From: Geosiphon pyriformis
Lineage: Eukaryota; Glomeromycota; Glomeromycetes; Archaeosporales; Geosiphonaceae
Direction of reading: 5' to 3'
DNA length: 64,000 bases
Assembly (NCBI GenBank): GCA_016748015.1
Contig: JAAOMT010000572.1
Span: forward strand, 223,650 to 287,649
Shown: positions 2,641-48,333 of the stretch, one piece after another
Position numbering within the stretch: the stretch's first letter is position 1
Layout: each line of letters opens with the position of its first letter
The notes under the pieces: model-generated
What the model was told of the DNA's origin: nothing
The model's database searches: none
The model's input: the letters and a program-made list of their open reading frames with translations, nothing else
Position numbers and translations under genes: made by a program

Positions 2641-2659
2641 TCGCAGATAGAAGAAGCTG

Positions 2660-3946: not shown

Positions 3947-4138
3947 GACGGCTTTTCCTTTTCTTTGGTGTCTAGTCTGTTTTTTTTGTGGTCTGCTGGG
4001 TCAATCTGAGATTTCGGTTTCAAGTTGGGTGTTTACATGTGCTTCAGGTTGCACCTGTGCCTTACAAAATCGGACTTTGGTTTCTTAAGTGGTTTTCCTG
4101 TAGCAGAAATTCTGGATGCGTAGTGCTGCCTTGGTTGG

Positions 4139-4252
4139 CCTGAGTGGCTAGTCACGTGTAGAAAAAACATGTGCCATGCTTAATTTAGATTCTGTGTATT
4201 CTATGTACTTAGGTAGTGGTTGGGCTGCACTCATAAAATCTTTAATAAAAAA
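4139..4252 (+). repeat. LINE 3' tail with A-run (copy 1)
   Basis: A block beginning CCTGAGTGGCTAGTCACGTG and containing TACTTAGGTAGTGGTTGGGC ends in an A-run at 4242-4252. The same block recurs at 34715-34815 (end of LINE copy 2) and at 40959-41075 (tail only). Conservation outside the coding region suggests it is the 3' sequence recognised by the element's reverse transcriptase (inference). Confidence 0.85.
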
Positions 4253-4684
4253 AAAAAGAATAATTGTTTAAGTTTATTATTGTGTTTAATTAAAACAATT
4301 ATACTAATAATTATGTTGATTTAATAAAAGTAGTTATACTATTAATTAGTAATAAATTTAAAAAAAATGTTAATATTTTATGGTTAACTTTTTTATAGTA
4401 TTGTATATTATAGTTAAATTTATTAAGTTAGAATATTTAATAAGTTAATTATTTATGTTTCAATTTTTTTTGTTGTATAGTTAAACCAAGGCTTAATAAT
4501 TTGTTATTACTAAAAATTTGGCACCAAAAAGATATTTATCTCAATAGCTAGTAGTTTAAATTATTGTTAAATATTTTTGTTTAATAATTGAATAGTTTTA
4601 TTTTGCTAAAAAAAGTGTTTTAATGACATATATTATTATATATTCTTTGATATTATTGTTTTTTTAAGAAAAAACAATATTATT
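4253..4684. other. AT-rich, no gene
   Basis: Very AT-rich sequence following the A-run of LINE copy 1. I see no coding frame, terminal repeat or RNA gene here. Confidence 0.6.
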
Positions 4685-5530
4685 AGTAGAAATTTAAAAT
4701 ATTATTTAGCATGAAATTATTCTTATAATTTTAATAATAATTAATATATATTATTAATTCAATTTATCACCTATTATTTTATTAAATTGTTTAAATTACT
4801 ATTTAATTAATAAACTGATTTATATAATACACAAATTGTAATGATTAAATTACACAATATTTCGAATTATATAACATTTAAGAATTTGCTAAAATTTATA
4901 AAAATTCATTAAAATAATTAATAGTTTACTAAAATACTTAATAGTTTATAGAAATAACTTGTAGTTTGCCAAAATATATTTTTAATTTAGTAAAATAATA
5001 GCAAAAAAAAGTGTAAATTTATAAACTAGTATTACAATAAGTTATATAAAAGAAAACTTTTTTTTTAAAAAAATATTTAGCTAGAATTTATCTTTATTTA
5101 AAATATTTTTTTTAGTATTAATATAAATTATTTCAATAAAAACTATATTAAAAACAACAAATTTATAATTATTTTGCTTAAAATATCTTAAATTTTAACT
5201 AATATTTTAAAATTAATTATTATTAATTTTAGTAATTTGTTAATAACTTTAAACTTAGACAAAAAACAATTTCTTAACAAAAAAATTTTTCTTCTATATT
5301 TTTTATATTTTATTTTTATTTTAAAAAAAATACATTAAAATAGCCTACAGACAAAATTTCTGTAAAAGAATTAACTTTTATAGCAAAATAACCATATATT
5401 TTTAGTAAGTTTCTAAACAAATACTTTTTAAAAAAGAATTGACTTTTACTACAAAGTAATTATATTAGTAATTAGTATAAAATTGGCTATTTTATTTATA
5501 AATCTAACAATTTAAATTATAGGAGATAAT
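4685..5530 (-). repeat. Long dispersed repeat P, inverted copy
   Basis: The reverse complement of this block aligns along its length with other stretches of the window: its outer part (4690-5000) with 9730-10050 and 26290-26550, its middle (5050-5300) with 9390-9660, and its inner part (5341-5510) with 14230-14400. Shared words include TTTTAGTAAACTATTAATTA and TAATCATTACAATTTGTGTA. It is non-coding. Its size would fit an LTR of a degraded element, but the orientation of the copies does not make a simple LTR pair. Confidence 0.75.
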
Positions 5531-7600
5531 TTAAAAATAAATTCAATTATTAAAAATTAACAGCAAAGCAACAACAATATTTAAGAAAAAAGACCAAAAA
5601 TTTTTAGTAACAATATATAAATAATGTTTATTTTATATTACATAAAATATACTAAAATCTAACTATTAATACAAAACAAAAAAAAAATTGGTTTTTTTAA
5701 ACTTGTAAATAATAACAGTTTTTGTTTTTTTTGAAAAATATTTGTACTTTATTTTAGGTGAAACATTGTATTCAACTATGTTATAAAAAGTACTTTACTA
5801 AAAAAAATTGAATTAAAAAAAAATTGAAATATATTTTATTAATATGTATTTTATAATTAGAATATGTATTTTTCATAAGATTCAATTTTAAATACAAATT
5901 TGTGAACTGGCTTTGTTCAGTAAAAAACTTTAGAATTGGTTGAACAGATAAATTTAATTAAGTTTTAATTCTTGTTTTAGACTAATTAGATAATAAGTTA
6001 TATATATATTTAAATATAAAAAAGTTATTTATATAATATATAATATATATTTTATTACAATTATTATTAAATTTATTATTATTGTTATTAAATTCATTTG
6101 AAACTAGATTTGTTTTGGTTTTTAAAATTTTGTTTTCTTTTTTTAGTTGAATAATATATGATAAAATTTTTATTATAAGTTTTTTATTTTTAAAAATTGA
6201 TTAATTTAGAACTAATTTTAACTTGTATATTATATCAAAATTTAAGAAAAGTAAATAAAGAAAACAAATAATGATAAAAAAAAGAAATGATAGTAAAGAA
6301 TATAAATAATAATGAAAAAAACAAAAAAATAATAATAAAGAAAATAACATTAATAATAAAATTATTCAAATTATAATAAAGTTATTACTTTTTTTTACAT
6401 AAATATAATAATAAAATTATCTATTTAAATTATTACTATTTACATAAACAATAAAATTATTATCATTTTTATATAACATAAATTATAAAATAATCTAAAT
6501 TATATTCTTTTATTTTATTGAATTTAAGACTTAAATATCAATCTGAATTGTTTAAAATAAAACCAAAAAAATTTTTTGTGTTTGTACACAATATTGAAAA
6601 AACAATATAAAAAATCTTAAATTATTAATTACAAAATTTACAAAAATTAAATATTACAAAAAAGAATATAAACAAAACAATTCAGATTTGAAAAGTTATT
6701 TAAGTTTGAGTATTTCTGATATTAAAAAAAATTCAAACAATAATTTTGAATTTTAATTATTGAGTATGTCTATATAAAGCAAATAATTTTTTATTTAATA
6801 ATTATAAATAATAAAAAAAACAGTTTAAATATTTTGGTTAAAGAAATATTTTCTATGCTAATTAAAAATATATATGTTTTAAGATTAAAATAATTTTTTT
6901 ATAACTGTTTTGGTGTTTTATTGTTAGTTATTTTAGGTATTATAATAATTAATAACTAATTGGCTTTTTTGTAATACTTTTTAATTTGTGTATTATAAAT
7001 AAGTTGATTATTAAATATTGTTTTATTTTGGTTTTGTAATATATAAAATCTGTTGTTTAAAACTTTGTTGATTATAAATAGTCTTTTTTATTAACTTGAA
7101 AATTTGTTACCAAAAATATTGTTTCAGTTTAATTTGTATTTAAAAACCAAATCACTTATACTTAAAGAAAGTGTTTTATAAATTTTTTTTCTTAAGTTTT
7201 TCTTGAAAAGTTTTTATCTTTTTATAAACAATTATTTATGTTTCTACTAAAATGTTAAAAATTGTTTTAAGTCTTTATTGTAAAATGTTTTTATAGTTAA
7301 ATTCAGTTATTTTTTTAAAGAATATTGTTTTAATATCTGTTTTAATAAGTAATATTACTATATTTTTATAGAATAAGTAAAAGAATTTATAACCAGTTAT
7401 GTTATAATTTACTGTTTTATAAGTAAAAAAAACTGAAAATAAAATCTTGTTTTATAGATTGGTTTCTTTATTGGTTTTTGCTAGAGTTTTATAAAATGCT
7501 TAATTAAAATATTTTACTAATCTATTAGTTTATAGAGATAAAAAAAGAGAATTTGTAATATATTCTAAGTTTTTTTAATAGTTTTTTTATTAATAAATTA
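5531..7600. other. AT-rich stretch, decayed element interior
   Basis: About 2 kb, T-rich on the + strand, almost without CpG and with no open frame. By position it would be the 3' part of the minus-strand gypsy remnant that follows (after integrase), but I found no motif that proves this. Confidence 0.4.
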
Positions 7601-9330
7601 AGAAAAATTCTTTTTTTATTTAAAAGCAATTTTAAAAACATCTATATCTACATATGATATTTTCATAAATAAAATTTGTAATTAAAATAACTGTTTGGTT
7701 TAATATTGCTCTGGCTTCTATTTATTTTGTTAAATAATCAGTTGTTGTTATAATATATTTATTTCTATTAAAAATTATAGTTAAAGACCCAATAATATTA
7801 ATTTTAATTCTGTCAAAAAATTAACCAACAGATATAAAATAAATGTTTTTTTTTCGATTGAATTTTTCTTTTTATTGATAGGCATTATAAATTTTAATAT
7901 ATTTTGTTATATTTTTTTTTAATATTGATTAGTAATATTTTGCTAATATCTTTTAAATAATTTTGGTCTTCTAAAATATTTTGCTAAAGAATTAATATGT
8001 ATATTATATATTACAATTTTTTTTTCTTAATTTAAATAACTTTTTGTAACCAGTTAAAATTTTTTTAATTCTTTTTATACAATTAATTTTGACAAATCAA
8101 ATAAAAATTTAATTGTTTTTGCAAATGTTTATTTTGCTATTAATTATATTTCAATGGATATTGTTTTTTATCCAAAAATTTGATAAATTCTAAATAGTTT
8201 TTTAAGTTTATTTGTCAATTATTGATTTAAATAATTAATTAATAATTAATTTAATTGATTTTTACTAAATAACTAATTAATATAGAGCATTTGCATTTTG
8301 TTTATTTATTTTTTTTCAATATTTAATATCATACTCAAATTTAATTAAGTAAATAATCTAACAAGAAAACTTTTTATGATTTGGTTTTTTTTTATTTTTC
8401 AGCCAAATTAAAGCTTAATAATTAGTATATTTATTGAATTTTTTTTATAAGATATTTATTTTAGTAATTAGTAATTATACTACTGTTAAACATTTTTTTT
8501 TGGTTATTGTGTAATTTTTTTTGTTTGTTTTAGGGTTTTATTATTATAGGCTATGACTCATTCTTTTTTTTATCTTTTTATAATAAGATAGTACTAAAAA
8601 AAATATTAAAGGCATTAATATAAAAAATAAATGACTTGTCAAAGTCGAATTGTTTTAAAATTAGTTTAATAATCAGTTTTTTTTTAAAAGTTTTAAATAC
8701 TTTTTGTTGAGTACTTTAATAATAATAAACATTTTTCTTTAGAAGTTAATTAAATAGATGTGCAATTTTAAAGAAATTTTTAATGAATTTATAATAATAT
8801 AAGACTAATCTTAAAAAAATTATACTTTAAAATATTTATTGATTGTTTAAGTTTTTGTACTTTTTTGATTTTAACTGAATTTAAAAAGATTTTATTTTTT
8901 GTTATAAGATATTTTAAAAACTGAGTAGTGTGTTTTTCAAAAATAATTTGATGAAATTGATTTTAAGTTCAATATTTTTTAAAAAATTAAAAACTTTTTA
9001 AAGATATTATAAATATTTATCTTATGTTTTTGAATATACAATTATATTATTTAAATATATTAAACCAAATTCTTAATGTTTTAGTCTGAATACTTTATCT
9101 ATTAATCTTTAAAATATAGATAAAGTATTTATTAATCTAAAAAACATTATTGTAAATTCATAAGTTTTATATTTTATAATAAATATGGTTTTTTTTGCTA
9201 ATAAAATCTATTTTTATTTGTCAAAATTCAACAGTTAAATCAATTACAATAAGATAAGTGAAGCTTTCAAATCAATCAAGAGTATTATTAATCTTAGGAA
9301 AAAAATATATATTTTACTTGATAATTGTAT
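7600..9330 (-). pseudogene. Ty3/gypsy RT-RNase H-integrase remnant
   Basis: Read on the minus strand from 9330 downward this is a stop-riddled gypsy pol. RT: YKTYEFTIMFF, then GLIYLNNIIVYSKT at about 9060-9020 (family: YLDDIIVYSKT, so both catalytic Asp are Asn, codons at 9046-9051). The end of RNase H is at about 8350-8290 (FEYDIKY then NKQNANAL, compare the usual NADALSR end). Integrase core start is at about 7830-7690 (NIIGSLTIIFNRNKYIITTT then DYLTK), followed by a FLYEQII-like stretch. The RT-RNase H-integrase order identifies Ty3/gypsy rather than copia. No functional frame remains. Upstream gag/protease cannot be joined because a copy of repeat P begins at about 9380. Confidence 0.78.
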
Positions 9331-9379
9331 TTAGTTATTAGTAATTTATACAAAATTGTTATTACTAAAAGTTTTTCTA

Positions 9380-10060
9380 TCCTTTTTTGAATATTGTTAA
9401 TATATTAAAAAAGTTATTTTAAATTCAGACTTAAAAGTTACTAATAATTTATTAAAATTAGTAATTAATTAATTTCAAAATATTTTGTATAAAATAATTA
9501 ATTTTGTAATAAAAATAGGTAAAAATTTTTATATTTTCAAAATAAGTTTTATTAGAATTAATTTATATAAAAAATACTAAGAAAAATATTAGTTTTAATT
9601 AAGATAAATTCTAATTAAAATATATTTTCTCAAAAAGAAAAGCTCTTCTTTTATATAACTTGTTCTAATACTTTTTTATAATCTAATATTTTTTTTTTCT
9701 AATATTTTGACAACTAAAAATACATTTTGTTAAATTATAAGTTATTTTTGCAAACTATAAATTATTTTAGTAAACTGTTAAATATTTTATCAAATTATTA
9801 AATATTTTGGTAAATTTTAAAAGTTATATAGTTTAATATATTGCATAATCTGATCATTATAATTTAGTTTTATTTGTGTTTTGTACAAATCAAATTATTA
9901 ATTGAATAATAATTTGGATAATTCAGATAATTTTATAAGATAATAAGTAATAAATTAAAATAATAATATATGTTAATTAATGATAAAAATTATAAAAATA
10001 ATTTTATATTAAATAATATTTCGAATTTTAGCTGGTAATATAACCTTTTTCTCAAGATTA
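9380..10060 (+). repeat. Long dispersed repeat P, direct copy
   Basis: Matches the reverse complement of 4690-5300 over about 650 bp. Recognisable shared pieces are AGATAAATTCTA followed by a TTTTATATAACTT segment, and TTTTAGTAAACTGTTAAATA. The equivalent of 5341-5510 is not evident before 9380, so this copy seems incomplete on its left. It sits between the RT remnant of the minus-strand gypsy and a possible gag remnant further right. Confidence 0.72.
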
Positions 10061-12727
10061 ACTTTATTAAAATTCAAATATTGTCTATAATTTCCAGATA
10101 ATAGTTCAAAATTATTAAAAAAATTTTGTCTAAAAATTATTGAAATTTCAGTTTTGTAAGCTTTCTAATTCAATTTTGTATTTATTATTTTTAATAAATA
10201 ATAATATATTAAAAACATAACATTTTAAACACTATTAATTATTACAAAACATGATGTATTTTTTACACAATTGAATATTTATTTGTTTTAATTATTAAAT
10301 TTGAGTTTTTTTTGAAGAGTAAACATAATTAAAAGTTAAGTAGTAAAGTTTAACTTTATTTTTATAATTAAATCTGGCTAATTTTATTATGTATTCAATA
10401 TATTCTGTTTTTTTTATTTAATAAACATCTTTTTGAAATCTTTTATTAATAAGAATTATAGTTAATTCATAAATTATTTTAGTATTATATAAGTAATAAT
10501 AGAGTTTGTTAAGTGTATTATTATATACTACTATGAATAGTGTTTTGTATTTTACTTTCTTAAAAATAAAAACCATATATTGACAGATTTAATTGCAAAC
10601 TTTTTTTATTGTAATATTAATTCAGTTGTATTTTTTAAACAGTAATTCTCTATATGTAAAACAGAATATATTGTTTTATTTTTTATTTCATTTTGGACTG
10701 TTAAATTATTTTTGGTAACAGAATTTATAATAATAGCAAATGTAAGTTTTATATTTTTTCTCTAATAATATACAAGCTTTTATAGATAAAAACTTTTTGT
10801 TACAACTTTTGTATTTGAATAAAATATAAGGTGGTTGTTTTTTTAGTTCTAATTTTAAATATAAAACATACCAACTATTAATTTGTTCAATTATAAAAGT
10901 AGATAGTTAACTGGTTTTTTGGGCCATAATAATATTGGTTGTAATGTAAATGTTTTAAATAACTATTCAGTTTTTTAGTCCAATTAGACCAAAAGTTAAG
11001 TGCCATATAGATTTTAGTAATTGGTTTTTTTTTTCTTTTTTAAATTTGAAAACCAAGACTTTTTTTAATCATTTGTTAAAAATATTACAAATAACTAATA
11101 CTTTAGTATATTATTTTTGATATAAAATTTTTAATTCTTGGGTTTCTCAATTCAAGTTTGTATTGGTTTTGAAAAGCCAATTATTTTCAACAAAAACTTA
11201 ATATTAAAATACATTTATGACTAAAATCTTAATTAAATAATAATTTTATTAATTATAAAAAAAAATTGTTGATTTTTTTACTAAAATTTTTTTTATACTA
11301 TCTACTATAACAATTATATTTTGAACAAACTAATCAATAGTTCATTAAAACTATTGTATTAACTGATAAATAATAATACTTTCAGTAAATTTATTGTTTA
11401 AAATTAAACAGATTGGTTTTTTTACTATTTTTGTTTCTGTATACATAATTGTAATTGCTTTTTGTTTATTAACAACTGTATTGTTAAGCAAGAATAATAA
11501 TTTATTTGTTTTAAATTCAAATAAAAAGATATTTAATAAATTGGTATTTTTAACAATTTTTGCTAGTAAAATAATATAATATTATGTAAAAAGTTTTGTT
11601 TTAGTGCTGCAATTTTATCTTTAAAAAATGCAGTTTGTTAAAAATTCTGTTTTTTAGACATTGTTAAATAATTTGGTTGAGTGTAAAAGTGATTAAATTT
11701 TTGTTGATTTTGATTTTGGAGAACTAACTAATTATTAAGATTAGATTAATTGTTGTTTATAAAAAACTAATTTTGTAATATAAATTGATTATATTAAATA
11801 ATTTTTTTAGCAGAAACTTGATACTATTACACTAATAATAGTTGCTAATATTATGAAGATTGTTAATACTGCTGTTGTTATTAAATTAATTATAAAACTG
11901 GTTGGTAATAATTATTTTGATTTTGTAATCTAAGTAAATAATATGCTAATAGTAAAAGTAAATAATAGGATTGTTAAGATTAGGAATAACATTAATTATT
12001 TCTTAGTTGCTAATCTTTTTGTAATTTTCAGCAATCTTGTTTTTAGCATCTTGAGATTTCACAATAATAGTAGTTTTAAGATTAGTTGTTAGATAATAAA
12101 GAGTTTTTTTGTTTTTAGTATTGAGATAGTTAATATTTTTGTTAATTAACAAAATATGTTTCAACTTTTTTAATAAGTTAGTCAATTTTTCTTCAATAAT
12201 TAAACTAATTTTTCTAATTACAAAGTTAACAAGCTTAATATAATTAACTTTTTTCATAGTTTTTTCATAGTTTTTAATATAGACTATAACATGTAATTAA
12301 ATCTTCTTAATAAGTTTATCTTTTAGTTTAACAACAAATTGATCTAATAGTTAGATATCTAAGTAATAGTTATTTTTTTTCAACTGTTTAATTCTTTAAA
12401 GAAATTTGTTGAACTTTTTAAGATAAATTATAACAGATTTAGCAAATTTCTGTTTAATGTTTTAAAAGTAATTTCAAAGAATAATTAAAATTTTTTTGTT
12501 AGTAAACTGTTTAAAAAAAGCTTTAAATGCTAACTAGTCAGCAAAAAATGCTGCTAAGTTTTCAAATCATTTAGCTGTGGTTTTTTGTAAAAAGTAAAAA
12601 ATTGTTTTTAGCATTTTTGTTGCATTTTATTCATTGACATTTTTGGTCTTAGTGACTTTGTCAAGCTATTTTTGAAAACTGGTTTTAAAGTTTTCTTCTA
12701 AAAATTCAGAGATTTTTGTAATATAGA
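10061..12727. other. AT-rich region without a defined gene
   Basis: About 2.7 kb of AT-rich DNA nearly free of CpG. On the minus strand 12257-12003 is an 84-codon open frame starting MKKVNYIKLVNFVIRK, rich in Lys, Ile, Leu and Asn and probably helical or coiled-coil. It may be a piece of the gag region of the minus-strand retroelement, but I recognise no domain. No RNA gene seen. Confidence 0.4.
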
Positions 12728-14405: not shown

Positions 14406-14445
14406 TATAATAAAAAGAAGAATTATAGAATTCCAAAATTTCAAA

Positions 14446-15136
14446 ATTCCAGAATTTTTTTCAAAGAAATTAAAAAATTTTAAAGAATCTTGTATAACAC
14501 GAATTATGTATATATAGCAAGAGTATTAAAAGCAGAAAAAATAATTCAGATTAGTTCAAAACAGTTAAAAACAAATAATTATCTAATAACTTTCTTTTCA
14601 AAAGATGGTTTTTTATAACTTAAATAGAAATATACTTATATTAATAAAATATTTATTATTATTCAAATCCATGATCACATTAATTAATTAAAAAAATATT
14701 AATTATTTCTATACTATTAACAATCTATGCTAATAGAATTTAATACTTAATTATATTGGACCAATAGCTCTTAATTATGGCTATTAACAAGATACTAATT
14801 TTTTATTTTTTTTTATTTTTTTTTATTTTTATTTTTTTGTTGTTTACTAATTAATTAAAAAATTAAGTACTAAATAATTGACATTAAGGATAATCTGGTA
14901 AAAAATTTAGGAACAAAGATAGAAAACTTAAGAATAGCTTATCAGAAAGACATAACTATCAGAAAAAACCAGTTATCATGCTGAAAAAAAAAATTCATAA
15001 AAAAAAACTATCAATTAAATCTCTGTTTATTTTACAAAAAACTCAACCAAAACTTTCAGACTTCAAAATCTTTAAAATTATTATTATTAACAACTATTGA
15101 ACATTAAGTTATAAGTTTGTTATTTGTTTTAACACC
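14446..15136 (+). repeat. 5' LTR of plus-strand gypsy element
   Basis: Starts around ATTCCAGAATTTTTTT and ends GTTTTAACACC. It shares with the 3' LTR the segments AATTAATTAAAAAAATATTA, GAAAACTTAAGAATAGCTTA and TAAGTTATAAGTTTGTTATT. Its stretch ATACTTAATTATATTGGACC (about 14741-14760) shows what the equivalent site in the 3' LTR looked like before the TTAA element inserted there. Confidence 0.85.
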
Positions 15137-17330
15137 CCAAATAATTACTTGTAATATTTGGTGCTTTTTGTAAAATATAATCTAACAGAAACTAGCATCA
15201 ACATTAACTATTCAAAAAAGTAACAGACCAAAAAATCAGAGAAAAAAATCATTTAGAATTCACAAAATCTTTATTTCAATATTACCAAACTTATTTTGAA
15301 CTAACAAATAATTATTGGTCAGCAAAATCAGTCTTTAATTTTTACATAAACAAAAAATTATATATTATTTGGAAAACCAAGAAGATTCAAAAGCTGTTCT
15401 CAAAAATTCTACAGTAAATTACTCCATAGTACTATATTTCCACAAAATTATTTGTTTATCTTATTAATTACAAAGATAAATTGAGAAATTAAGAATTACA
15501 CTCAGCAGAAATTTTTTATTATTTTTACAGACAAAGATAAAAAAAAGTTATAAACTCTAACAAAAACACCAAGAAAAATACAACAACTTACTTAAAAGAA
15601 ACCAAAAGATATTTTACTTATATACTTATTTTACTATTATATATTAGAAGATATTATTCATATATTATCCAAATTCATATTATTATTAACTGCAAAAATA
15701 TTATTATTCAAAATATTGTTCCAAAATAATTAAAAAAAAGCCAAATTATTAAAAATTTATAATGATTTTTTTAAAGGATTTAAATTACAGTCAACAATCT
15801 CATTAGAACTTTAATTACTACTACTTCAACCAAATTTTAGATTTACTAGTAATTGAACAAATACTAATTCAGAAAAAAAAACAGTGATTAAGAAAATAAT
15901 AATCAAAATTTGATCTCAAATAATCTGAAAATCCAAACTTCAATTGTTTAAACTTAGCAAAACTTAAACAATTCAAATCTTACTCCTATTTTTTAACAAC
16001 ACTTATCTTTAATTATCCTGATTTATTAACTGTTAGTAGTATTAATTTCTATTTAGCAATAATTACAACAATAACAACTTGCACAAATGACATATATACC
16101 AATCACTAAACTTGAAAAATTTACTGGTAAAAAAAACAACATTTAAGAATAACTAAACAATATAACAAAAGTTATTATAGCTAATAGATAAGACAACACT
16201 AGAGCATTTTAAGTAATTTTCTACTTCTTATAAAATATAATTGACTTATAATACCAGAATTTTGTTAACAAATTTTAAGATTTTAATATATTTAAAACTG
16301 TGTTTTTATAATATTTTAGCAATTATAATAGCATTAATTATTTGTTAACTGGCTTTACCACTATTAAACAAAATAATAACAAAGCAGTTACTACTTATTT
16401 GGAATTTTTTCATAGAAATTTGTGCCAAATCTAAGCAATCAATGCTAACTACTTTATAGTACTACAAATACTAAATTAATTTATTTATGAATTATATAGT
16501 AATTTGTTATTATAAATACATTTAATACACCCAAATATCTTTTAAGACACAATTATACACACCAGAAATTTTGAATTGGCTGAATTCAAAGCCAATTATG
16601 CCCAAATTATAAATTTAGTAATAAATAAATTATTTTAATTAAATACCAAATTGAAACAACTTGGTAAAGCTATTAATAAGAAAATTAAAAAATATTTAGC
16701 TAACAACTAAATAATTTATTAGTCTTTTCAACATTGTAATAATTAAAGAAACACAAATCAGTTTCAGAATCAATTATATTTAATACTATTATTTATGGCA
16801 AATCAATTATGGCAACAAAAAATGTAAAATTGCTACTATTATAATAAATAAGATTATCTAAAAACAGATTATTACTTAAAATTAAGTAACCAATAATTAA
16901 AAAACCAATATAAAAACTCTAATTGCAGATTTTAAACTTCAAATTATACTCAGAATTAGGAATAATATTAATATTAAACCCCATATTAATTAATAATACA
17001 ACAATTTATATATATCTTTAATGTATTAAGCTTCAATATCTGTACTCTATCAATTATAATATACCAACTGATTTTTAGTTTATTGAACCAGTTATTAAAA
17101 GCATTTTAACAAAGTTCAAGAAGTAAGTACACCTAAATCTGAATTTCCAGAGCTATTTAAGTCTTTTAGTTACCTCAAAAAACACTTAATCTAACAATAT
17201 AAAACAGCCAAAACAACTACTTATTAATAATATTTTACCAATAACAGTCACTAAAAATGAATTACTTGTAGCCATATACTTTTTCAAATTAGAAAAATCA
17301 GTAATAATATTTCTATTTAGTAAAATTATT
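15137..17330 (+). pseudogene. Gag-like region of gypsy element
   Basis: Between the 5' LTR and protease lies about 2.2 kb of A-rich DNA with stops in all frames. By position it is gag. I could not make out a zinc knuckle or capsid motif. A short inverted sequence (CAAATAATTACTTG...ATATTTGG) directly follows the LTR where the primer-binding site should be, but I could not match it to a tRNA end. Confidence 0.4.
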
Positions 17331-22250: not shown

Positions 22251-23216
22251 TTTAGTCAAAACAGCATATAGTAATTAATTAAAACTATATTACAATATAA
22301 TATTATCTTTACCAATAATATTTTACAATTGAAAATACAATAAATACTAGTCTAACCAGATAAATTCTACAAAATCTGGAACCAATTATAATTATTGATA
22401 TAAATACATCATATTAATTTACCAAAACAGTATAAAAAACACTAATACATACAATAAAAGCAATAAAAAAATGAAAATTACAGACAATATTTACTTTTTA
22501 GCTCAACAATTATTTTAATTCATCAAACATCAAAAATTAAACATGAAAATTACAATCAATTAACAAATAATACAATATAAAAACACCAAAAAAAAACCAA
22601 AACTCTAATATAAAGTACCATATAAGATACATATAAAGCCCAAAAACATAGTAAAAAAAATAATAGCAAAAGTAAAGATGTTATTAAAACTACCAAAGAC
22701 AATAATATTATATAAAAAATTAATAAAAAAAAATTGAAAATGGTAAATACAACAATTTTTTAAAAACTTTTGTTATTATTACCTAAAAAAAAGCTCAATA
22801 TTTAGAATTTGTATACTAATAAAACCAGACAGATGTTTAATATAACAATATTATAGCAAATAAAACAATTTGTGAAGAAAAACAATTTATTCACACAGAT
22901 ATAAGCAATATACTGATTACAAACAGAATTTTATAAATGTCCAAAAATACTATTACACTTAATAATAAATACAATAATTATTAATCAATTAAGAAAAATT
23001 ACTAATTCCAATTCAAAAAATTATAAACTAAATTGCTCAAGTAATTTTAAAAAAAAAATGATAAAATTAATCTAAAAAGAAGATTTAAAAGAACTAAAAG
23101 ATTTGAAGAAATCATAACAAAGCTCAATATTAAAAAAAAAAATATTATTACTTATAAAAATAAAAATCATAATAGATAAAAAATAGTCAATAAGAAAAAA
23201 ACATAGTAAAAAAAAA
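22251..23216 (+). other. 3' end of gypsy interior, no motif
   Basis: A-rich sequence between integrase and the 3' LTR with no readable domain. The purine-rich run just before 23217 (AAAAAACATAGTAAAAAAAA) is where a polypurine tract should lie. Confidence 0.4.
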
Positions 23217-23520
23217 ATTCCAGAATTTTTTTTAAGAAATTGTAAGATTTCAGAATTTTTTTTAAAACACAAATTATATATATATAACAAGAATATTAAA
23301 AACAAAAAAGTAATTCAAATTAGTTCAAAACAATTAAAGACAAGTAATAATTTAATATCTTTTTTTTAAAAAGATAGTTTTCTATAACTTAAAATAAAAA
23401 CATATCCATATCAATAAAATATTTATTATTATCTAAATTCATAGTCATATCAATTAATTAAAAAAATATTAATCACTTTTATATTATTAATAATTTATGT
23501 TGATAGAATTTAATACTTAA

Positions 23521-25893
23521 TTCACAGATCGGTTATGATCAGGTGTGTAACACATAGTAAAATTTTACACAGATCTACTATTAGAAACACCGAACACTGG
23601 TTTTTTATGCTATTAGCAGCTATTGCATTGATCAAAGCAATTAGTGATACAAATATGCAGGCCTCTCCGAAAATGGTAAATAAAGACATGTGCACAAGAT
23701 AGTAGCAATTTTGCTTTTTTTCGTGGCTTTTGCTATGTAGAAAACCAGCATTTTTGCTTCCATTCATATAGTAAAAATTATCAGTATTCAACGATTCAAA
23801 ATTTTCACAGTCAGTAATATGCCTTTTTTTGGAAAAAGTGTGAAAGCTTACAAAGATCTTATAATTATAGCACACTTTATTGGCTTTATTACACCCACAC
23901 TCTCTTTTCTGTTGAGCAAATTAGAGTTAATTGAAGTGTTTTTCTGTTATAACTTGGCAGCTGTTTGTTGAGCTTACATAGGAAAGTGATTAACCACACC
24001 TCCATTTATTGTTTTATCATCTTGATTGGTATGTTCAACAGTTTTTTTACAGAAAAAATATGGCCAAAAATAAGAAAACTGAAACATAATGAAAATGGTA
24101 TCAATTTTGCAGGTGGTTTCCCTTATTATTTATTTTCTATAACTATCATATCTCCTAAAGAACTTCAGTTCTACCAATTTCTAACATTTGTCGTGCTTGT
24201 TCATTTGCAGTATCTTTAAAAGCATGAGAAAACCTCCCAATTCAATTTTGGATCATATTCACTTTTGGAACGTCTTTCTGCACAATTTTTCCTAATTCTA
24301 CAAATCTCATAAGTTCAACTTGCATTTCTTTTGCTAACATGTGATCTCGAAGGGTTGAATTTTTATTTATAAAAAAACTTTGCAACAACATATTTATCTT
24401 TTTTGACATATGTTTTCCCTTTCTCTTTCCACCCATTTTCTGATTTTGTTTTAGTGCCCATCCTTTTGGTAGTGGGTATTCTTGATCGATCAGACTATGA
24501 TTCTTTTGATTAAAATTCTATATAAGACTTTGTGAATACAATGAAGAGGCTTACCTCAGGCTGAAAGCAGTGGCATCTTAATTTATATTTTACAAATATA
24601 AGGTTGATATCAAACAATCTTATTATTTTATTTAGAATCAATTTAAGAAAACACACTGACCTCGTGATCTTTTTTTGGCCTCTCCAATAGTCAGTTCTAT
24701 CATTGATTGATTTCCAATATCATCTACTCTTTGAGTATTCTCTAATTAAATTTAAAAGTAATATTGGTATTATTTACATTATTGTTGCTACAAATGACTT
24801 TCAGATTAGATCTACTTGACATCCATGGCATTTGCATCTTCCAATCAATGAGATTTTCAGTATGCTCTGAAAAAAAAGGTTTTGGTCTAACAATCTCTGT
24901 ATTACATAAATTTGCTACAGCTGCTGGTGAATAATTCTCCAATCTAACATTTGTATAGGGATTTTTCTTGACTTGATCTGCTCGTCAAAAATGCATTTCA
25001 GTATATTTTCATTACTCCATTCATTTGGTGTACATACAAATGATTTTTTATAATTCATTAATTGAAATAAGAATTGTGTATCAGGATATTTAATACCAAA
25101 AAGAGTTTCTTCATTGTATTTGATAAGAATTCCTAATTTTTTTCAAATGTTGTTGGGTGTTTCGCCTTTAATTGATCTAATACATGTTTTATCTTGATAT
25201 ATATGTAAATAACAAGTAGATTTGTTAATTTCTTGTACAATGAGTCGTTGTTGTCCACTTATCTTTGTCATTATTGTTGAGATATATCCTGTTCCTGCAC
25301 CATAGTAATTTTTGAAAGATAAACATCCAATTGAATTAATAACAATTGTATGTTTGTCAACTTTCAGAAATAATAGTACAAATGAAATGTTTTGTTAATT
25401 TCTGAACAAGAGCTTTATTATTGAAACCAAGGATTGAAAGACCCGAGTATTCTGTCTTAACACCAAATATACTTTGATACAAAGTATTGATTGCAGTCGA
25501 AGGTGAGTTTTCAATATTACTAGATTCTGAACTATTAGTACAAATAAAGCCAGGTTTCTGACAACTAGTTTGTTTTACTATTGTCATTATAAACTGTTGT
25601 TTGTTTAGTTTAAAACCAACACACATATACAGTCGGTAAGGTATAGTAAAAACCTCATTTTTAAATTGTTTTTGAATCCACCAATTCCGAGTAAACAAAC
25701 CATAATGTGTTTCAGAAATAATAAGACCTTTGTCAAGGAGGTTTACAGTATATTGTTGACTTTGAGCCATATTATGACAAATGTTAAGAAAGACAGAACA
25801 TTTAAAAACAAAGAAAAAACTATAATAAGTATAACCGCTAAATTTGATTATTATTTGTCGATCATTTGAACATGGTAATATCTGATCTGTGAA
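23521..25893. mobile_element. DNA element with TTAA duplication and TIRs
   Basis: A 2373-bp insertion in the 3' LTR. It begins TTCACAGATCGGTTATGATC and its other end, read inward on the minus strand, begins TTCACAGATCAGATATTACC: 10 identical bases, then about 14 more partly matching. It is flanked by TTAA at 23517-23520 and 25894-25897. The uninterrupted 5' LTR shows that one TTAA-type site is the pre-insertion state. TTAA duplication is known for piggyBac and Kolobok superfamilies, but the ends do not start with the usual piggyBac CCY and I see no recognisable transposase. It carries one decayed minus-strand gene. Probably non-autonomous. Confidence 0.85.
24155..25770 (-). pseudogene. Decayed spliced gene carried by the TTAA element
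   Basis: Starts MAQSQQYTVNLLDKGLI at 25770 and is open to 25357 (137 residues: ISETHYGLFTRNWWIQKQ, FTIPYRLYMCVGFKLNK, TIVKQTSCQKPGFICTNSSE). A +1 shift then gives VDKHTIVINSIGCLSFKNYY, GAGTGYISTIMTKISGQQ and SIKGETPNNI-stop-KKLGIL with LFGIKYPDTQ; the stop is TGA, one step from Trp. After further shifts come ELTIGEAKKRSRG with a GT donor, and a last exon from about 24510 (PLPKGWALKQNQKMGGKRKG, then LRDHMLAKEMQVELMRFVEL, VPKVNMIQNWIGRF) ending at 24155. The GETPNNIW...LFG part resembles an FYRC-type module, weakly. I recall the family as multi-copy in Glomeromycotina (unverified). Not a transposase I recognise. Confidence 0.6.
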
Positions 25894-26269
25894 TTAAATA
25901 CATTAGACTAATAGCTTTTAATCATAGTTATTTTATTTTTTATTTTGTTTTCTTTGTTGTTTACTAATTAATTAAGAGATTAAGTACTAAGTAATTGACA
26001 TCAAAAATAGCTTGGTAAAAAACCTAGAAACAAGAATAGAAAACTTAAGAATAGCTTACCAGAAAAGTATAACTGTCAAAATAAACCAGCTACCATGCTG
26101 AAAAAAAAAATTTATACAAGAAAACCATTAATTAAATCTCTGTTTATTATACAAAAGACTCAACCAAAACCTTTAGACTCCAAAATCTTTAGAATTATTA
26201 TTATCAACAACTATTGAACACTAAGTTATAAGTTTGTTATTTGTTTTAACACCTTAAATAATCTGTAAT

Positions 26270-26550
26270 AGTAAACTACTATTTTGTATTTTAGTAAACT
26301 ATTAATTATTTTAATGAATTTCTATAAATTTTGGCAAATTTTTGAATATTACATAGTTTAAAGTATTGTGTAATCTAATCATTACAATTTGTGTATTATA
26401 TAAATTAAATTATTAATTAAATAATAATTCAGATAATTTGATAAGATAATAAATAATAAATTAAAATAATAATATATATTAATTAATAATAGAAATTATA
26501 AAAATATTTTTATGCTAAATAATATTTTAAATTTTTATTAATAACAACAT
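26270..26550 (+). repeat. Repeat P, outer segment
   Basis: Closely follows the reverse complement of 4690-5000 (TATTTTAGTAAACTATTAAT, TTTTAATGAATTTCTATAAA, TAATCATTACAATTTGTGTA with one or two changes). It starts right after the 3' LTR of the gypsy element; with 14230-14405 it looks like the two sides of one P copy, with about 0.35 kb of the middle missing. Confidence 0.72.
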
Positions 26551-29444: not shown

Positions 29445-30304
29445 GGAATTATAAATTAGCCAATCATGAAATAGCACAGCAACAATTTATAAAAAAAAAT
29501 GATTTACAAATAACAGCAAGCACTATTTTACAATAGCAGCAAGCATTATTGTACAATAATAGTAAATACTATTGTGCAAAAGCAACAAGTACAATTTCAC
29601 AATAGCAGCAAGCATTATTTAGAAATAATGGAAATAGAGTATTACAAGACGTTATTTTATAAAACAATAATTATATATATATCAATCTGAGTGAGTAATG
29701 ATCAGACTTCTACACAGTATATTTTGGACAATAGTTTTTAATAATGAAGAAAAACAGCTTCAATTCAAAACAACAAATATCTAAATTAAATCTTATTCAA
29801 AAAGAATTAATAAAAATAATAAATTAAATAAACATCACAATTACAAAATTAACAATAGAATTCACATACCCTCTCTAGTGAATGAAACTATTATTCCATC
29901 TTTGAATCCTTTGGAAAAATAATCTCTGATCAAGATTATTTATGTGGTTACTAATTAAATTGAAAAAGCTTTATTATATACTTAGGAAAATCACGAAAAA
30001 GCCATTAACATTCCATGTTTTTAAATTAGAGAAACACATTAGACAATTGCAAAGATAGCCTCAGAGAAGACCCCAAACAGTGAGTAGATTTTAAATTAGT
30101 CTCTGAAAAGGAGTACACAACATATAAAAACAATTAGAATTAAAAAAAAGACTTATATTACAACATCAAGAGAAAACTTTCAGTATATTATCATTAATAT
30201 CCAACACATAAAATAGAAGAACTTACAAGAGACTAATTGCAATTAAAACAGGATATCAACAATTAAAATATACCAAGAAAACACTCCCATAATATCAGGT
30301 TATT
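29445..30304. mobile_element. Unclassified non-coding insert in LINE-2 endonuclease
   Basis: About 860 bp separate LKI (end of the left endonuclease part) from FFKSKLSVTV (right part), which are adjacent in this family. The insert has no coding frame. Its left third holds a 23-bp minisatellite (29508-29624), followed by a TATATATAT box and further A-rich DNA. Size and the TATA-like stretch would suit a solo LTR or a non-autonomous element, but I could not fix its ends or a target duplication. Confidence 0.6.
29508..29624 (+). repeat. 23-bp minisatellite, five units
   Basis: Five consecutive units built on AATAGCAGCAAGCATTATT plus four bases; units 2 and 5 are nearly identical and units 1, 3 and 4 are variants (for example AAAGCAACAAGTACAATTTC). 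It lies entirely inside the insert that splits the LINE-2 endonuclease. Confidence 0.75.
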
Positions 30305-38390: not shown

Positions 38391-40034
38391 TTAATTCTGT
38401 GATAAAAGGGTCATTAATAGCTGACATCCAAAGCTAGACTGAGAAACTATTGGTCCAAGTGCATCCAATCTTTTAGCCAAGTTGTTGACTTGCTTTGTAA
38501 GGCTGGTAAAACTGTATTTAAGAATAGCAAACTTATTGTTTATGTTCAAAAAAACCAGTGGGAATGGTTTAGCATTCAAAGATAAACCAATATTAAAAGA
38601 AACTAAAAACACTATACAAGAAGTGAAATTACCAGCAATCTGTACTCAAGTCTTTTCACCAAATAAAACCAAATAAGTAATTGGTGTTTGCTTCTTTTTA
38701 TATATGTTTGCCAGATAAATTTGATCTTAAAAGATAACCAACCACTTACTATAACTGCTTAAATTCTCACCTATTGAACATATACTAAAAACATGACTAA
38801 AATAATTACAATAAGCACAATAACCCAAATAAAGACCAGCTTAGTGTAAATTTACATTCCTAAAAACTGGTGTAAAACCAATAACAGTTTTTTTGGAAGC
38901 TTTATTAGCAAAACAAACCATAACACATTTGTTACACATATATGAACTTGAATTACAACCAATAAAACAAGTTTTTTCATTATATAATTTCAACAAACAA
39001 AGTATACAACAAAGTTTAATGTAGATTTCTTGATATTTATAATTATTTATTACTAATTATTAAAGTTACATACATAAAATCTTTTTTCATAAAAATAGAC
39101 CACTTAGATGCAATCAAATTAGCAATATCTAATGACTTAAATTTTATTAGAGCCTTTTGTCAAAGACCAATTAATTGTATTTTAATTGAAACAATCTTAC
39201 TAAATTTAGAAAAAACTGATTCTACTGCCAATTTGAAAAGATTTAATGAAATTTTCTTGATGATTACTTTTTGATTGAACAGTTGTTTGTTTTTTTAATA
39301 TCAATATTAACTAAAATTTTTTTACTAATTGCCAATTTTTAAGCTCAATTTTAATATAAAAAAAATCTAATAATTCCTAAAAATTTTAAAGAAATAAAAG
39401 CACTTTTAAAACTGTCAACATAATAGAAAATTTTTTTAATTGTTATTAATTTATTATTATTGGTTTTGCTAAGTACAACAGATAACTTAATATCTAAAGT
39501 AAAAAATTTAATTGGTTCAAAACTTTGTTTTTCCAGAACACATAACTTAACTAAAGAAAACAGCTTAGAGCCAGCAAATTTGGGAGAAAAAAAAACCAGA
39601 ATATTATTATTATTACTCATATTATTAAACATTAGAGCTTTTGGTAGATAACTCAATATATATGTTTGAGTATAAGTCTTTCTTGGCATGATTTTGTTCA
39701 TATTTTCATCACCCACAAAAATATCCAAATTTACATAACTGGATTCTTTTACAATTGTGTTTTTCATATTTTTTACATCCAAAAAACTGCTAATACTATT
39801 TGTAATATTATCTACATTACTTTTTTAAAACACTACAAATTTAATGTCAGAGCCTTTTAAATCTTTCAAACTTATAGGACTAGTAAACAAGTCAATTATA
39901 ATACTACTAGCTTTAGGTTTTTTTGGTTTTTTATAAGATACATCATAAGAGTAGACACTTTCTACATGTTTTTTTTTGGTGCTTAAACAGGTTTTCAAAC
40001 CAGTCAAGCCAGAACTTGAACCACTAGTAAACAA
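38391..40034 (-). pseudogene. LINE-3 ORF1
   Basis: Three open pieces (40034-39825, 39782-39351, 38612-38391) correspond in order to LINE ORF1: a basic, low-complexity start with KKPKKPKAS, a middle rich in Asn and Lys (ESSYVNLDIFVGDENMNKIM, SPKFAGSKLFSLVKL), and the helical end LNINNKFAILKYSFTSLTKQ. The nucleic-acid-binding centre (39300-38700) is too decayed to read. Confidence 0.7.
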
Positions 40035-40040
40035 GTCTGC

Positions 40041-40958
40041 CAGTTTTATTGCAACAAAAAAAGGTGTATTGAAAGAAATAATTAAAGTAAAAAATAAAAA
40101 AGAGAATAAGAAAAGTTATTTTTTCAGCAATTTTAAGCTCTTATTATAATTAAAAAATCAATAAAAAAAGAGTTTTTTTTAAAATTAAATCATTTAAATA
40201 TAATTGATAATAAAGTTGCTAATAAATTAGTTAATAATATTATTTACTTATTTTTATATGTTTTAATCATAATTAATAAAAGTTTTTTTTAAACAATAGA
40301 AAAAATATCTTAAATAATACTTATTAATTTGTTTATAATATTTATTAAACAGTTAATTATGCTTTATAAAAAACTAATTTAGATATTAATATAATTTTTA
40401 ATAGTATAATTAAAAATATAAATTAGTATTATATATTATAGTTCAATATTTAAATTTACATATAAATCAAATTTTATTAATAAAATTTTAATTAATTTAT
40501 ATATATATTTAATAAAATTAATCTACAAATATTTTTTTATTGTTGTTTAAAAATATTTATATAATAAATAATATTCTAAGATTTTTTGTTTTTATTATAA
40601 AAATATCAAAATTTTAAATTATGTTTTTACATACAAATTGAATTTTAATATTTATCTAAAGTTGTTAAAATTTTTTTGATTTTTAAGTTATATTTATTAA
40701 TATCTTATTTTTGTTATTTTTAGTTCTATATTTATTTACTTCTAATATTTTAATAATACTATATATACTATTATATATAAAAATTTTGTTATTTTTAGTT
40801 CTATATTTATTTACTTCTAATATTTTAATAATATTATATATACTATTATATATAAAAATTTTGTTGTTAATATCTAGTTTGCTAAAATATTATTAATATT
40901 TAAAAATATTAAATTGATTTGTTTTTATTTAATATTTTTTTTATATTATATAATAGAG
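40041..40958. other. AT-rich with a 75-bp tandem duplication
   Basis: No gene. At 40711-40863 a 75-bp unit (starting TTGTTATTTTTAGTTCTATA) occurs twice in tandem with one or two differences. The 61-codon frame over it simply repeats a 25-residue hydrophobic unit and is a by-product of the duplication. Confidence 0.6.
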
Positions 40959-41075
40959 CCTGAGTGACTGGTCATGTATAAAAAGAGCATGAGCCACACT
41001 TAATTTAAGATCCTGTTTGATCTTATGTACTTAGGTAGTAGTTGGGCTGTATTCATTAATTAATAAAAAAAAAAA
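40959..41075 (+). mobile_element. Tail-only LINE/SINE-like insertion with TSD
   Basis: A 117-bp insert made only of the LINE 3' tail (starts CCTGAGTGACTGGTCATGTA, contains TACTTAGGTAGTAGTTGGGC, ends in a 12-14 A-run). It is flanked by AATAGAG at 40952-40958 and at 41076-41082, as expected for a target-primed reverse transcription product. Either an extremely 5'-truncated LINE or a short non-autonomous element using the LINE tail. Confidence 0.85.
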
Positions 41076-41082
41076 AATAGAG

Positions 41083-41286
41083 AATTATAAAAAAAGATAT
41101 AATTTTATAAATTTAAATATAAAGTCACAATAAAAAAGTGGCTCGGTTGGTAATAATATATTTGTTTCTTATAGTTTGTATAATTTAATTAATAATTTAT
41201 CTATTAAGATAATTTATATATTTAATATTATTAAAATTTTTATAGTTATTTAGGGTTAATATAATAAGTATCTATTTTTTTTAGTC

Positions 41287-41319
<33 letters not shown>

Positions 41320-41815
41320 TAAATACATAGTATAATTTTGGCTGAATTAAGTAATTAATTATATATAGTAAATATTAAATAGTTTTTATAATAAAAATTA
41401 TTATTAATAATATTATTAAAATTATTATTAAATATTATACTTAAAAGTTTTAATCAATTTAAAACCAAATAAAAAACTTATTTTTTAAATATTTAAGCAA
41501 AAAATTGTATAAAAATTTAATAATTGAAAATAAAATAATAAATAAAAAAATTAAAACTTATTTAAGTTATAATATTTAATATTAATTAATAAACAAAAAA
41601 TAAAAATATACATAAACTTTATTAATATAAATAATTTATAAAATAATAACAATAATAATTTTTAAATATTAGTTAATTTAATATTAATTATAAAATATAA
41701 AAACATTATTTTTAATTAATTTAAGATTGTTATATTTTTATAAAATCAAGAAATCTTTGATAAATAAAATTTATTAACCAAATAGAATTTAACCACATTG
41801 GTATTTAGCATATAG
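41083..41815. other. AT-rich, (TAA)n, no gene
   Basis: Contains a TAA microsatellite at 41288-41320 and otherwise featureless AT-rich DNA. A tRNA A-box-like word (GTGGCTCGGTTGGTA at about 41140) has no matching B-box. The CpG-free region ends near 41760-41815. Confidence 0.5.
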
Positions 41816-41851
41816 ATCACGTGATATAACAATTGAACAGACTATTGTGTA

Positions 41852-41930
41852 CTGGCGCAATGTATCTGATACCTGTATTTACTTGTCGAATGGGCGTTTA
41901 TCTAGTTCGAATCACTTCTCCCCATCTTTT
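41852..41930 (+). other. Possible Pol III promoter boxes
   Basis: TGGCGCAATGT at about 41853 resembles an A-box, AGTTCGAATCA at about 41892 resembles a B-box at tRNA-like spacing, and CTTTTTG at about 41925 could terminate Pol III. I could not fold the sequence into a tRNA: the T-stem does not pair and no acceptor stem is found. It may be a tRNA relic, part of a SINE or chance. Confidence 0.2.
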
Positions 41931-42421
41931 TGTGAGATTTTCCAGCTTTCTATTATTTTTAATATACACCATAAATCAGTTTCCTTGGATTGGTTACCCC
42001 CTGAGAATTCTCCTCGTAAGAAGGCAATAGACCCCCTCCCCTTTTGCTTATCACAGCAGATAGGCATTTAATATTGTTTTCTAGCTTATGAATTATGCTA
42101 TAAAAAGGCTGAAATTAAACGAATTTTGACTCATTGTAATAAATCCTCCCATCTTGGATTTTAAAACTGAAGTCTTTGATGGTGGGTTTTATTTGTACTG
42201 AAAGTATTTTTCAAATCACTTTTTCAAGTTAATTCTGCGCCTTTCCACGTGTGTTACAAAAAGGCCGAACTGAACCGGTGAATTGTCTTGCATATTTTCG
42301 TCGCTGCAGTTCTTTGTTGGTTTTCAGACTAATAGATAATACCTCGGAAAAAACTGTGACTCCCCCAAACTTCCCTTCTCTCCCTCTATTACCCTTTTTT
42401 TTTTAACAATTGTAACTAAAC

Positions 42422-43993
42422 ATGAGAGAATCCAACTTTTCATTCCCTTCTCAAAATCGTGCATCCGTGTGTATAACATCTGCTCTTTATGACAGAAGAG
42501 CTTTGGATTGCACCGCCATCTTACCTTTAATAAACTCTCTTACACATCTCACATACCTTACAAGTACGTCTCCTCGCATCCGTGAGATTCTAACTATGGA
42601 TGGAGGCTTAGAACGTTTGGTACGCATTTTAAAAACGACCAAAGCTAATGACAAAAGAAGTGGCTGGAAGTGGTCTATGGCGTTTCAGTGTGTTGCTAAT
42701 GTTGGTGTGCGTGGTTCCGAAGCTATTAGAACACGAGTGGTGGAAGCTGGGATGGTGCCAGTAATTATTACTGTTTTGGACAATTTCTTAAGGACTTTGG
42801 ATCACGTTAGACTGGAAAAAGAACAACAAGTCGTTGCAGCTCCTTCTCTTGCTACTCAACAACCACTATTAATCACGAGCAACCCTTTGCCTCCAGCTCC
42901 GCTTTCTGGGCCTTTTGTTGCTACTATAGATACTGGTAATTCTTAAAGTATTTTTCAGAACATCTGGATTTGGGTTAAGGATTATTTTTTAAAATCTGTT
43001 ATAAAACGCAAATTAATTTTGCCTTTCTTTTTCGCTACTTTGATAAAACATATCGATTCTGGATTCTTTGAATTTCCCTTTTCTCTATAACCTGACCAAT
43101 CCTCACCAGCAGCGGCATCTACAAGCCGATTATTGACAGCTTTGAATTCTAACGGGACCACGCATTATGATATAAGATCCTCTGATGATGCGAGATCAGA
43201 CGTAGCATCGTGGGGTTCAGTTGCAGATACGGAAGAGGGAGCTTTAACCACTGCGGTACCCCAACTTCCCTCGACAGCAAATGGTACAACAAACACCAGT
43301 ATACCCTCCAACTTCCGATTATCACAGCCTTCAAATAATACTGCCAATCCATCGAATCCCGCATCTTTCGATATCGACGTTCTTTATCGTGAAGAAGACA
43401 TTCTTTTGTCGCTTCAATTACTAGCTTATCTGTCAAAATATCCTCAACTGCGTTCCACCTTTCATTCATCTTATCCTCCTCATAATGTCTTCTCTCTTGT
43501 GGAAAAATATACTCATCGTTTACATCCTCAGGAAATTCAGTACTGGGCCGGAGTTATTATGCGCAACGCTTGCCGAAAAGATGAAGCTCGTGGTGGAATT
43601 CGCCAATGTGCTTACATGTCTTGCGGCAAATGGGAGAGTTTTGCAAGGGAATTTGCCAAATGCCGAAGGTGTCGTAAAGCTAAGTATTGTTCAAAGGCTT
43701 GTCAATCGAAGGCATGGAGCGAAGGTCATAGATGGTGGTGTATGGAGCGGCATGGTCACGGAGATTCAGAAACCCATCAACACCCACAATCGAACAATCA
43801 AACCTCTACAACAGCCCTAGTGACAGCGGGACATCGCTCCCGCAATACAAATATTAGTCACATGACCGAAAATATTATTAATAGATCAGGTGTCAACCAT
43901 GAAACTCCAAGCACCCCATCCACGGGTCCTTCTTCCGGTACAGCAACACATAATCGTAGATCTGGGTCCGGGTCTTCTCTTTTGGTTTCATGA
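42422..43993 (+). CDS. mub1: MYND-finger protein, Mub1/SamB family
   Basis: Two exons, 42422-42935 and 43110-43993, give 465 residues. The start MRESNFSFPSQNRASVCITS is the conserved N-terminus of this fungal family, followed by an armadillo-like helical region (SPRIREILTMDGGLERLVRI). Exon 2 carries low-complexity Ser/Asn/Pro sequence, then DVLYREEDILLSLQLLAYLS and the MYND zinc finger at about residues 338-382 (CAYMSCGKWESF, CRRCRKAKYCSKACQSKAW, then H and C), ending in a disordered tail. In yeast Mub1 works with the ubiquitin ligase Ubr2 and Rad6 to degrade the proteasome-gene activator Rpn4; in Aspergillus SamB affects morphogenesis. The intron donor is GTAATT; the acceptor is tandem CAGCAG, so one Ala may be alternately included. 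The first gene after the transposon block. Confidence 0.93.
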
Positions 43994-44939
43994 TTGATAT
44001 CAAAGGGGAATGGGCATGCAGGCATAAGGGTCTTGCCAGATTCATATGTTTGTTTATTGGCAAATACAATGCTTGTATATGGTAAAAGGTCGTCGCTATC
44101 GATGATTTCAGCTTCCTTGCCGATTTTTGCTCATTTCTCTAGTCTGATTTGGATAATTTATCATGTTACTTGCTCATGAATCATGCGGGGAAAACGAGAA
44201 GTGTTTATGAAAATTCCAAACAATTCTATCTATATATATTTTCATTTTCTGTTACACGCTCAAGTAGATTATAGCCGCTTTCCAGCGTTTTATTCTCTAT
44301 TGCAAAATCTCTTCACGCTTTCTTTGAAAATTTTATTTTGGGCCAGGCTCTATGTTCACATCGGCTCCTAGGAATTCTTGTGATGCACCATTTGGAGAAA
44401 CATTAACTTCTCTGCATTCAACGCAATTTCACATCGCAAATAGTCTTGTTTTTCTTGTTGCATTTGTTCCTGTTTTGGTTATAGGTGTCGCAGATATGGA
44501 AAAGCCGTTCGCCGCATGATTATTTCGATGTGCATATAGACAAGTTCTAGCAACAATTTTGAAAATTCTTAATTATCTGTTATTACTTTACTGCCATCAT
44601 GCATATTTCATGATTCATCGGGGGTCTTTACAAATTTAATTCTTGTCAAACTAGCAAATGGTGAACGTAGGAAATCCAAAACTTGGATATCATATTAAAT
44701 TATATGATACTAAACGACTTTACTTAGATTACAATCAATTATAATTTTATATCCAATAATATTCCACTGAAATTCTGAAAGTGATGTTTTCAAACATTCA
44801 ACTTGGCCTATTTGAACATCAGATTGCGTGAGAATTAACTTTAATAAATACATAAAGCTATCTCAACAACAGTTAAACAACTGACATATGAATTCCCAGC
44901 GTCCTCAAGATTTTCATAATATTATGTTTTAGTGTTGTT
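43994..44939. other. Intergenic between convergent genes
   Basis: About 0.95 kb between the 3' ends of the Mub1-like gene (+) and the Spc34-like gene (-). It contains CpG and balanced composition like the gene region, but I see no coding exon. Confidence 0.5.
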
Positions 44940-48145: not shown

Positions 48146-48333
48146 TTCTTTGGTGCTCTAACACGATTTTAGGTAGCAGTGATTTTAAAAAGCTTTGTTC
48201 ATGCTAAAGATTACAAAGTCATCTTAAGTTAATATGACAGTACATATTATTGGCTATAGCATTTAGGCAGGATTACAAAATATACTATTTAGTCAGGAAT
48301 GTCAATGGATAGCACAGCAACTCTGTGACTGTC

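Follow-up and report, generated by a model that had tools for sequence, protein, structure and literature searches.

A TTAA-flanked insertion in Geosiphon pyriformis is very probably an internally deleted, non-autonomous DNA transposon

We analysed a 64,000-nucleotide stretch of the Geosiphon pyriformis genome (GenBank assembly GCA_016748015.1, contig JAAOMT010000572.1, positions 223,650 to 287,649 of the forward strand; hereafter, the window) that contains a mobile element of 2373 bp at positions 23521–25893, with inverted ends and TTAA on either side, within the 3' long terminal repeat (LTR) of a decayed Gypsy-like element. With high probability, this insert derives by internal deletion from a TTAA-targeting cut-and-paste transposon of about 4.4 kb and is non-autonomous, presumably having been mobilised in trans by full-length copies. 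What carries this reading was observed directly: the ends and their TTAA, an empty site, a family of copies in the genome, a centre that is missing from the window copy, a deletion joint found at three loci, and reading frames that are broken both in the window gene and in the transposase-like cores of the longer copies.

In the proposed mechanism, a full-length element of about 4.4 kb would carry a single long minus-strand gene (in window orientation), encoding, from N- to C-terminus, an N-terminal region, a Cys/His-rich stretch, a DDE-type transposase core and a basic C-terminal region. The window copy would have lost about 2 kb, including the core, at a single joint, possibly through faulty repair. 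Transposase encoded by full-length copies would then have acted in trans on its remaining ends, excising the element and pasting it into a TTAA that became duplicated.

Ends and insertion site

The element starts TTCACAGATC and finishes GATCTGTGAA, so that its ends read TTCACAG...CTGTGAA, and its gene reads on the minus strand. The left terminal inverted repeat (TTCACAGATCGGTTATGA, plus strand) occupies 23521–23538 and the right one (TTCACAGATCAGATATTA, minus-strand reading) 25876–25893, and the two copies of the TTAA target-site duplication stand at 23517–23520 and 25894–25897. The pattern of TTAA plus element end occurs twice in the window and in none of 100 shuffles. A chance inverted repeat was rejected on this count and on the absence of any match to a reversed control in the genome.

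The 5' LTR of the same retrotransposon (14443–15160, plus strand, bounds approximate) supplies the empty site, reading TACTTAATTATATTGG with a single TTAA at 14747–14750, against a filled site that consists of TACTTAA, the element and TTAAATACATTAG. When the element and one TTAA are taken out, the resulting sequence, TACTTAAATACATTAG, equals the 5' LTR site exactly in length and aligns to it gap-free. Among the general marks of a cut-and-paste DNA transposon with terminal inverted repeats, inverted ends with a target-site duplication and an element-free empty site are present.

The LTR on the left of the insertion (23214–23516, plus strand) belongs to an alignment in which 23214–23522 is 83% identical to 14443–14752, and on the right (25898–26270, plus strand) 25928–26302 is 85% identical to 14813–15178, the stretch before 25928 having been matched by eye; the outer bounds of both parts are approximate. 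Differences between the paired LTRs comprise 85 transitions and 15 transversions. The region between the LTRs holds decayed frames that resemble Ty3/Gypsy by eye, one of them reverse-transcriptase-like.

An initial annotation of this DNA, made from the letters alone, had described a non-autonomous TTAA-type DNA element with inverted ends, nested in an LTR and provided with an empty-site control in the 5' LTR. These points stand, given the exact coordinates, the shuffle result, the matching lengths of the empty and restored sites, the LTR alignments of both flanks and, as set out below, the loss of about 2 kb with the core at a joint found at three loci; other loci with these ends, whose absence would have told against the element, do exist.

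Copies in the genome and target-site use

The genome searched is a 124.7-Mb assembly of 406 contigs, with the window on contig C165. A search with the whole element returned 29 matches, the window's own included, and placed one or both of its halves on 14 other contigs, while the TTAA-plus-end pattern matched 22 times, compared with 0 times for the reversed control. All but one of these 22 coincide with termini of known copies (two of them in the window); the remaining match (C384:256854, unread) most likely marks the distant terminus of the C384 copy, which would then hold roughly 25 kb of nested sequence. Flanking sequences differ between copies, which represent several insertions at unrelated sites. 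In C251, C384, C318 and C386 the gap between the two halves of the element (1–1419 and 1420–2374) is about 2 kb; it is 3.9 kb in C203 and 12–33 kb in C397, C361 and C247.

Target-site use was counted with the window included, from 14 loci examined at the left end (11 readable) and 15 at the right end (12 readable by script). TTAA was present at 11/11 readable left ends and 12/12 readable right ends; a thirteenth right end was found by eye at L054, and L047 and L053 are rearranged at their right ends. Since T precedes TAA at 40% and A follows TTA at 41% of occurrences in the window background, as against TTAA at all readable ends, TTAA is a strict target, and none of the readable ends lies at a TA that is not part of TTAA.

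Two further features were noticed by eye around the copies. In L063 (approximately 1770–5000) one frame after the break looks like a retrotransposon gag, and in the flank of the C397 copy (L058, 3302–3842, minus-strand reading) a piece resembling a pogo/Tigger-type transposase (LLLLDNAGFY...TTSHLQPLDA) replaces the left terminus of the TTAA element. Scans of viral and genome contig collections, which may omit records of this genome, found no relatives.

The gene and its missing middle

The N-terminal part of the gene (24939–25770, minus strand) starts with MAQSQQYTV at 25770 and is supported by tblastn of nine other copies and of a relative on C399. Relative to other copies it is interrupted by a 2-nt deletion at about 25381–25394 and by a TGG-to-TGA stop at 25143, so not all of its frame breaks are introns. 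It ends at the deletion joint (24935–24944), beyond which 24787–24939 (minus strand; ENYSPAAVANLCNTEIVRPK...) matches residues 346–396 of four read-through copies, directly C-terminal of the DDE-like core. A basic segment at 24242–24517 (minus strand; PLPKGWALK...GGKRKGKHMSKK...) follows in an open frame, probably after an intron, and would form the C-terminal region. Pfam searches with single pieces gave no family above the cut-off.

At nine other loci there is a central stretch without counterpart in the window copy. Its DDE-like core was found at nine loci with at least 70% identity (the query's own locus, C251, counted) and at two distant loci with 45–48% identity, and every one of these cores contains stops. 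Four of the nine core-bearing loci (L046, L058, L061 and L049) have a 398-codon frame that spans both the core and the right breakpoint, running from a Cys/His-rich stretch through blocks whose best-kept forms are IIIADYKM, SDN..HYHN and GEAKTIID to the segment that the window copy keeps at 24939–24787; L047, L048, L055, L050 and L060 shift frame along the gene. On the other side, the C399 relative (two pieces, at 45% and 32% identity) is by eye homologous and continuous across the left breakpoint, which indicates that the window copy has lost sequence.

Because the same gene continues through the central stretch in longer copies, the window gene consists of its N- and C-terminal remains, and is most likely a remnant of the element's own transposase gene with the catalytic middle deleted. 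The initial annotation had read it as an intron-containing non-transposase gene. The second part of that description gives way, since this gene recurs in the other copies found, the longer of which include its DDE-like middle; the first holds in part, the breaks at 25381–25394 and 25143 being a deletion and a point mutation, with introns near the C-terminus still possible. Stop-free N-terminal pieces exist at C363, C182, C399 and C368, so an intact N-terminus may survive somewhere. The family as a whole could by now be inactive throughout this genome.

The joint, TTAGATTGG followed directly by AGAATTATT, is identical in the window copy and C182 and carries two substitutions in C175. Since they have one joint in common, these three copies look like a non-autonomous subfamily and, as their flanks differ, it seems that the product of a single deletion transposed on at least two further occasions. 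Other internal deletions are found in C363 and C142, the latter also being internally inverted.

In an alignment of the N-terminal region (A3; 25770–24942 of the window, minus strand), 3 of the 10 members weakly matched the FYRC domain (best E 0.0049), below the Pfam cut-off where a score was shown. This could point to a chromatin-binding N-terminus and is offered as a lead only.

Structure of the DDE-like core

Two AlphaFold models of the core, both of low confidence, place strands and helices in the RNase-H order b1b2b3-a-b4-a-b5, with D49 on b1, D131 after b4 and E166/D172 after b5, and with 34 residues between D131 and E166. Motif order and secondary structure fit an RNase-H-like DDE core; the models are of low confidence, however, and fold searches gave no significant match. 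These returned weak rows, the RNase-H-like ones among them (Argonaute, RNase HI, Hermes transposase and RuvC) standing amid many unrelated ones. Sequence searches of the PDB with A1, A2 and A3 found nothing at E 0.1 or better. Pfam searches with 6 and with 11 core sequences, with listing thresholds of E 1 or 5, gave no transposase family above the cut-off, and a weak match to DDE_3 appeared in one sequence (E 0.11–0.13). DDE chemistry is the putative activity of the core.

Transition-dominated decay

The copies differ from one another almost exclusively by transitions, which make up 8429 of 8817 differences (96%; 388 transversions) across all 21 pairs of seven copies (the window copy and L046–L051), the pairs not being independent. 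Per pair, transitions amount to approximately 10–13% and transversions to 0.4–0.7%. In alignment columns with an ancestral C (assumed where at least two copies have C), CpG was hit most (44–57%), followed by TCA (37%), with GCT, ACT, GCA and ACA lowest (12–17%). Of 58 stops in the four read-through copies, 48 trace back through a transition to a sense codon that another copy has, 8 are common to all four and 2 fit neither description. This decay resembles the C-to-T change of repeat-induced point mutation (RIP) and, from the sequence pattern, would fit RIP or strong deamination of methylated cytosine alike. The window itself has a two-speed composition, with 14–17% G+C in some blocks (4001–12000 and 40001–42000) versus 36–41% in gene-like blocks (42001–54000), which fits repeat-directed C-to-T mutation.

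If the host is an arbuscular mycorrhizal fungus, a RIP-like process would be unexpected. According to Dallaire et al. 2021 (PMC8647823, citing Venice et al. 2020), RIP signatures were undetected in Gigaspora margarita or Mucoromycotina species, and in the accessible main text of a fungus-wide RIP survey (PMC12543289) neither Glomero nor Rhizophagus occurs. The transition-dominated divergence between copies makes a RIP-like process in this organism testable. As for the host, a universal small-subunit (SSU) rRNA motif has a single exact match in the whole assembly, at C320:1045433–1045452 close to the end of a contig, and the AML2 primer has no exact match; the host may thus differ from typical Glomeraceae.

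Other features of the window

A 431-codon open frame at 2651–3946, with a start that looks RNase-H-like by eye (VYTDGSIKDLG), lies within a block of 36–39% G+C and is probably the end of a LINE-type element. At 29486–29634 there are five copies of a 23-bp-spaced tandem repeat, and a similar unit was noticed by eye in an insert inside L048.

Alternative explanations and comparison with known transposon families

The element might belong to Kolobok or piggyBac and owe its odd look to decay, an assignment that we regard as unlikely while giving it real weight. In PMC9587614, Kolobok is described as generating TTAA duplications, having 5'-RR...YY-3' ends and a C/DxxH signature, and occurring in fungi. 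The present element resembles it in its TTAA target-site duplication, inverted ends and putative DDE-type core, but differs in ending 5'-TT...AA-3'. The C/DxxH signature was not seen by eye between the second D and the last acidic residue in 11 decayed cores, although decay could hide it. TTAA as target and duplication also recalls piggyBac; however, piggyBac ends start with CCY and those here with TTC, a lack that the initial annotation had correctly pointed out. Nor was a piggyBac-type transposase domain among the Pfam matches listed for the 6 and 11 decayed core sequences. A third TTAA superfamily is Sola3. Rhizophagus irregularis has been screened with a set of profiles that includes Kolobok, piggyBac and Sola-3, and the accessible text of that study (PMC11075540) names none of the three among its new families. 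Our literature searches found no paper joining an R. irregularis transposase with TTAA and Kolobok, and none that brings together DNA transposons of Rhizophagus, TTAA and terminal inverted repeats.

It is improbable that the element is Tc1/mariner-like, duplicating only the 2 bp of TA, with ends of ATTCACAG...CTGTGAAT and a strong preference for T-TA-A. A TA duplication within a strict TTAA target leaves the same filled and empty sites as a 4-bp TTAA duplication, and the 34 residues between D131 and E166 equal the DD34E spacing of Tc1. The DDE_3 match that would accompany this is weak, however, and the outer T or A is kept at 23/23 readable ends, where targeting of TA alone would give an expectation of about 0.4 to the power 23.

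We consider it very unlikely that the 2.37-kb form is ancestral and that the 2 kb found elsewhere is a later nested insertion with a separate transposase. Three loci lack the 2 kb, each at precisely the same position, and GGA, which by eye is common to both breakpoints, would suit a 3-bp target duplication; yet it would be equally consistent with microhomology at a deletion. Against nesting also stand the single frame across the right breakpoint in four copies, the homology of the C399 relative across the left one (by eye), and a joint that does not keep the reading frame of the C-terminal part.

The proposal of the initial annotation, that the ends captured an unrelated host gene and thereby spread a gene family, is scarcely credible: it suits the window copy taken alone, whose gene lacks a recognisable transposase, but other copies have the same gene, longer ones include its DDE-like middle, and no different cargo was found at 21 of the 22 end matches (C384:256854 being unread). 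What looked like a gene-carrying element becomes a transposon with a gutted transposase gene, and an ordinary mechanism replaces gene mobilisation, in what is possibly a new kind of TTAA transposon. If this is the gene family that the initial annotation took to be expanded in Glomeromycotina, the simplest cause of its expansion would be transposition of the transposon itself.

Given the TT...AA ends, a C/DxxH signature that was not seen by eye in the decayed cores and the absence of a CCY start, we file the internally deleted element as a TTAA DNA transposon without superfamily assignment. Tentatively, the family could represent a separate TTAA-targeting DDE superfamily with TT...AA ends, a long multi-part transposase outside Pfam, non-autonomous copies that keep only the gene ends and broken genes that can be mistaken for an expanded host family, all under heavy C-to-T destruction in the fungus. 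If true, such a transposon, lying outside piggyBac and Kolobok, would be informative about how TTAA targeting evolved and might serve as a tool. The ends and core motifs can now be used to seek intact, possibly active relatives. The closest parallels to the window copy itself are Ds of Ac and KP of P, which are internally deleted, non-autonomous DNA elements: as in those systems, the terminal parts are retained, the transposase middle is gone and one joint recurs at several insertion sites, the difference being that the parent gene here is of an unclassified transposase kind.
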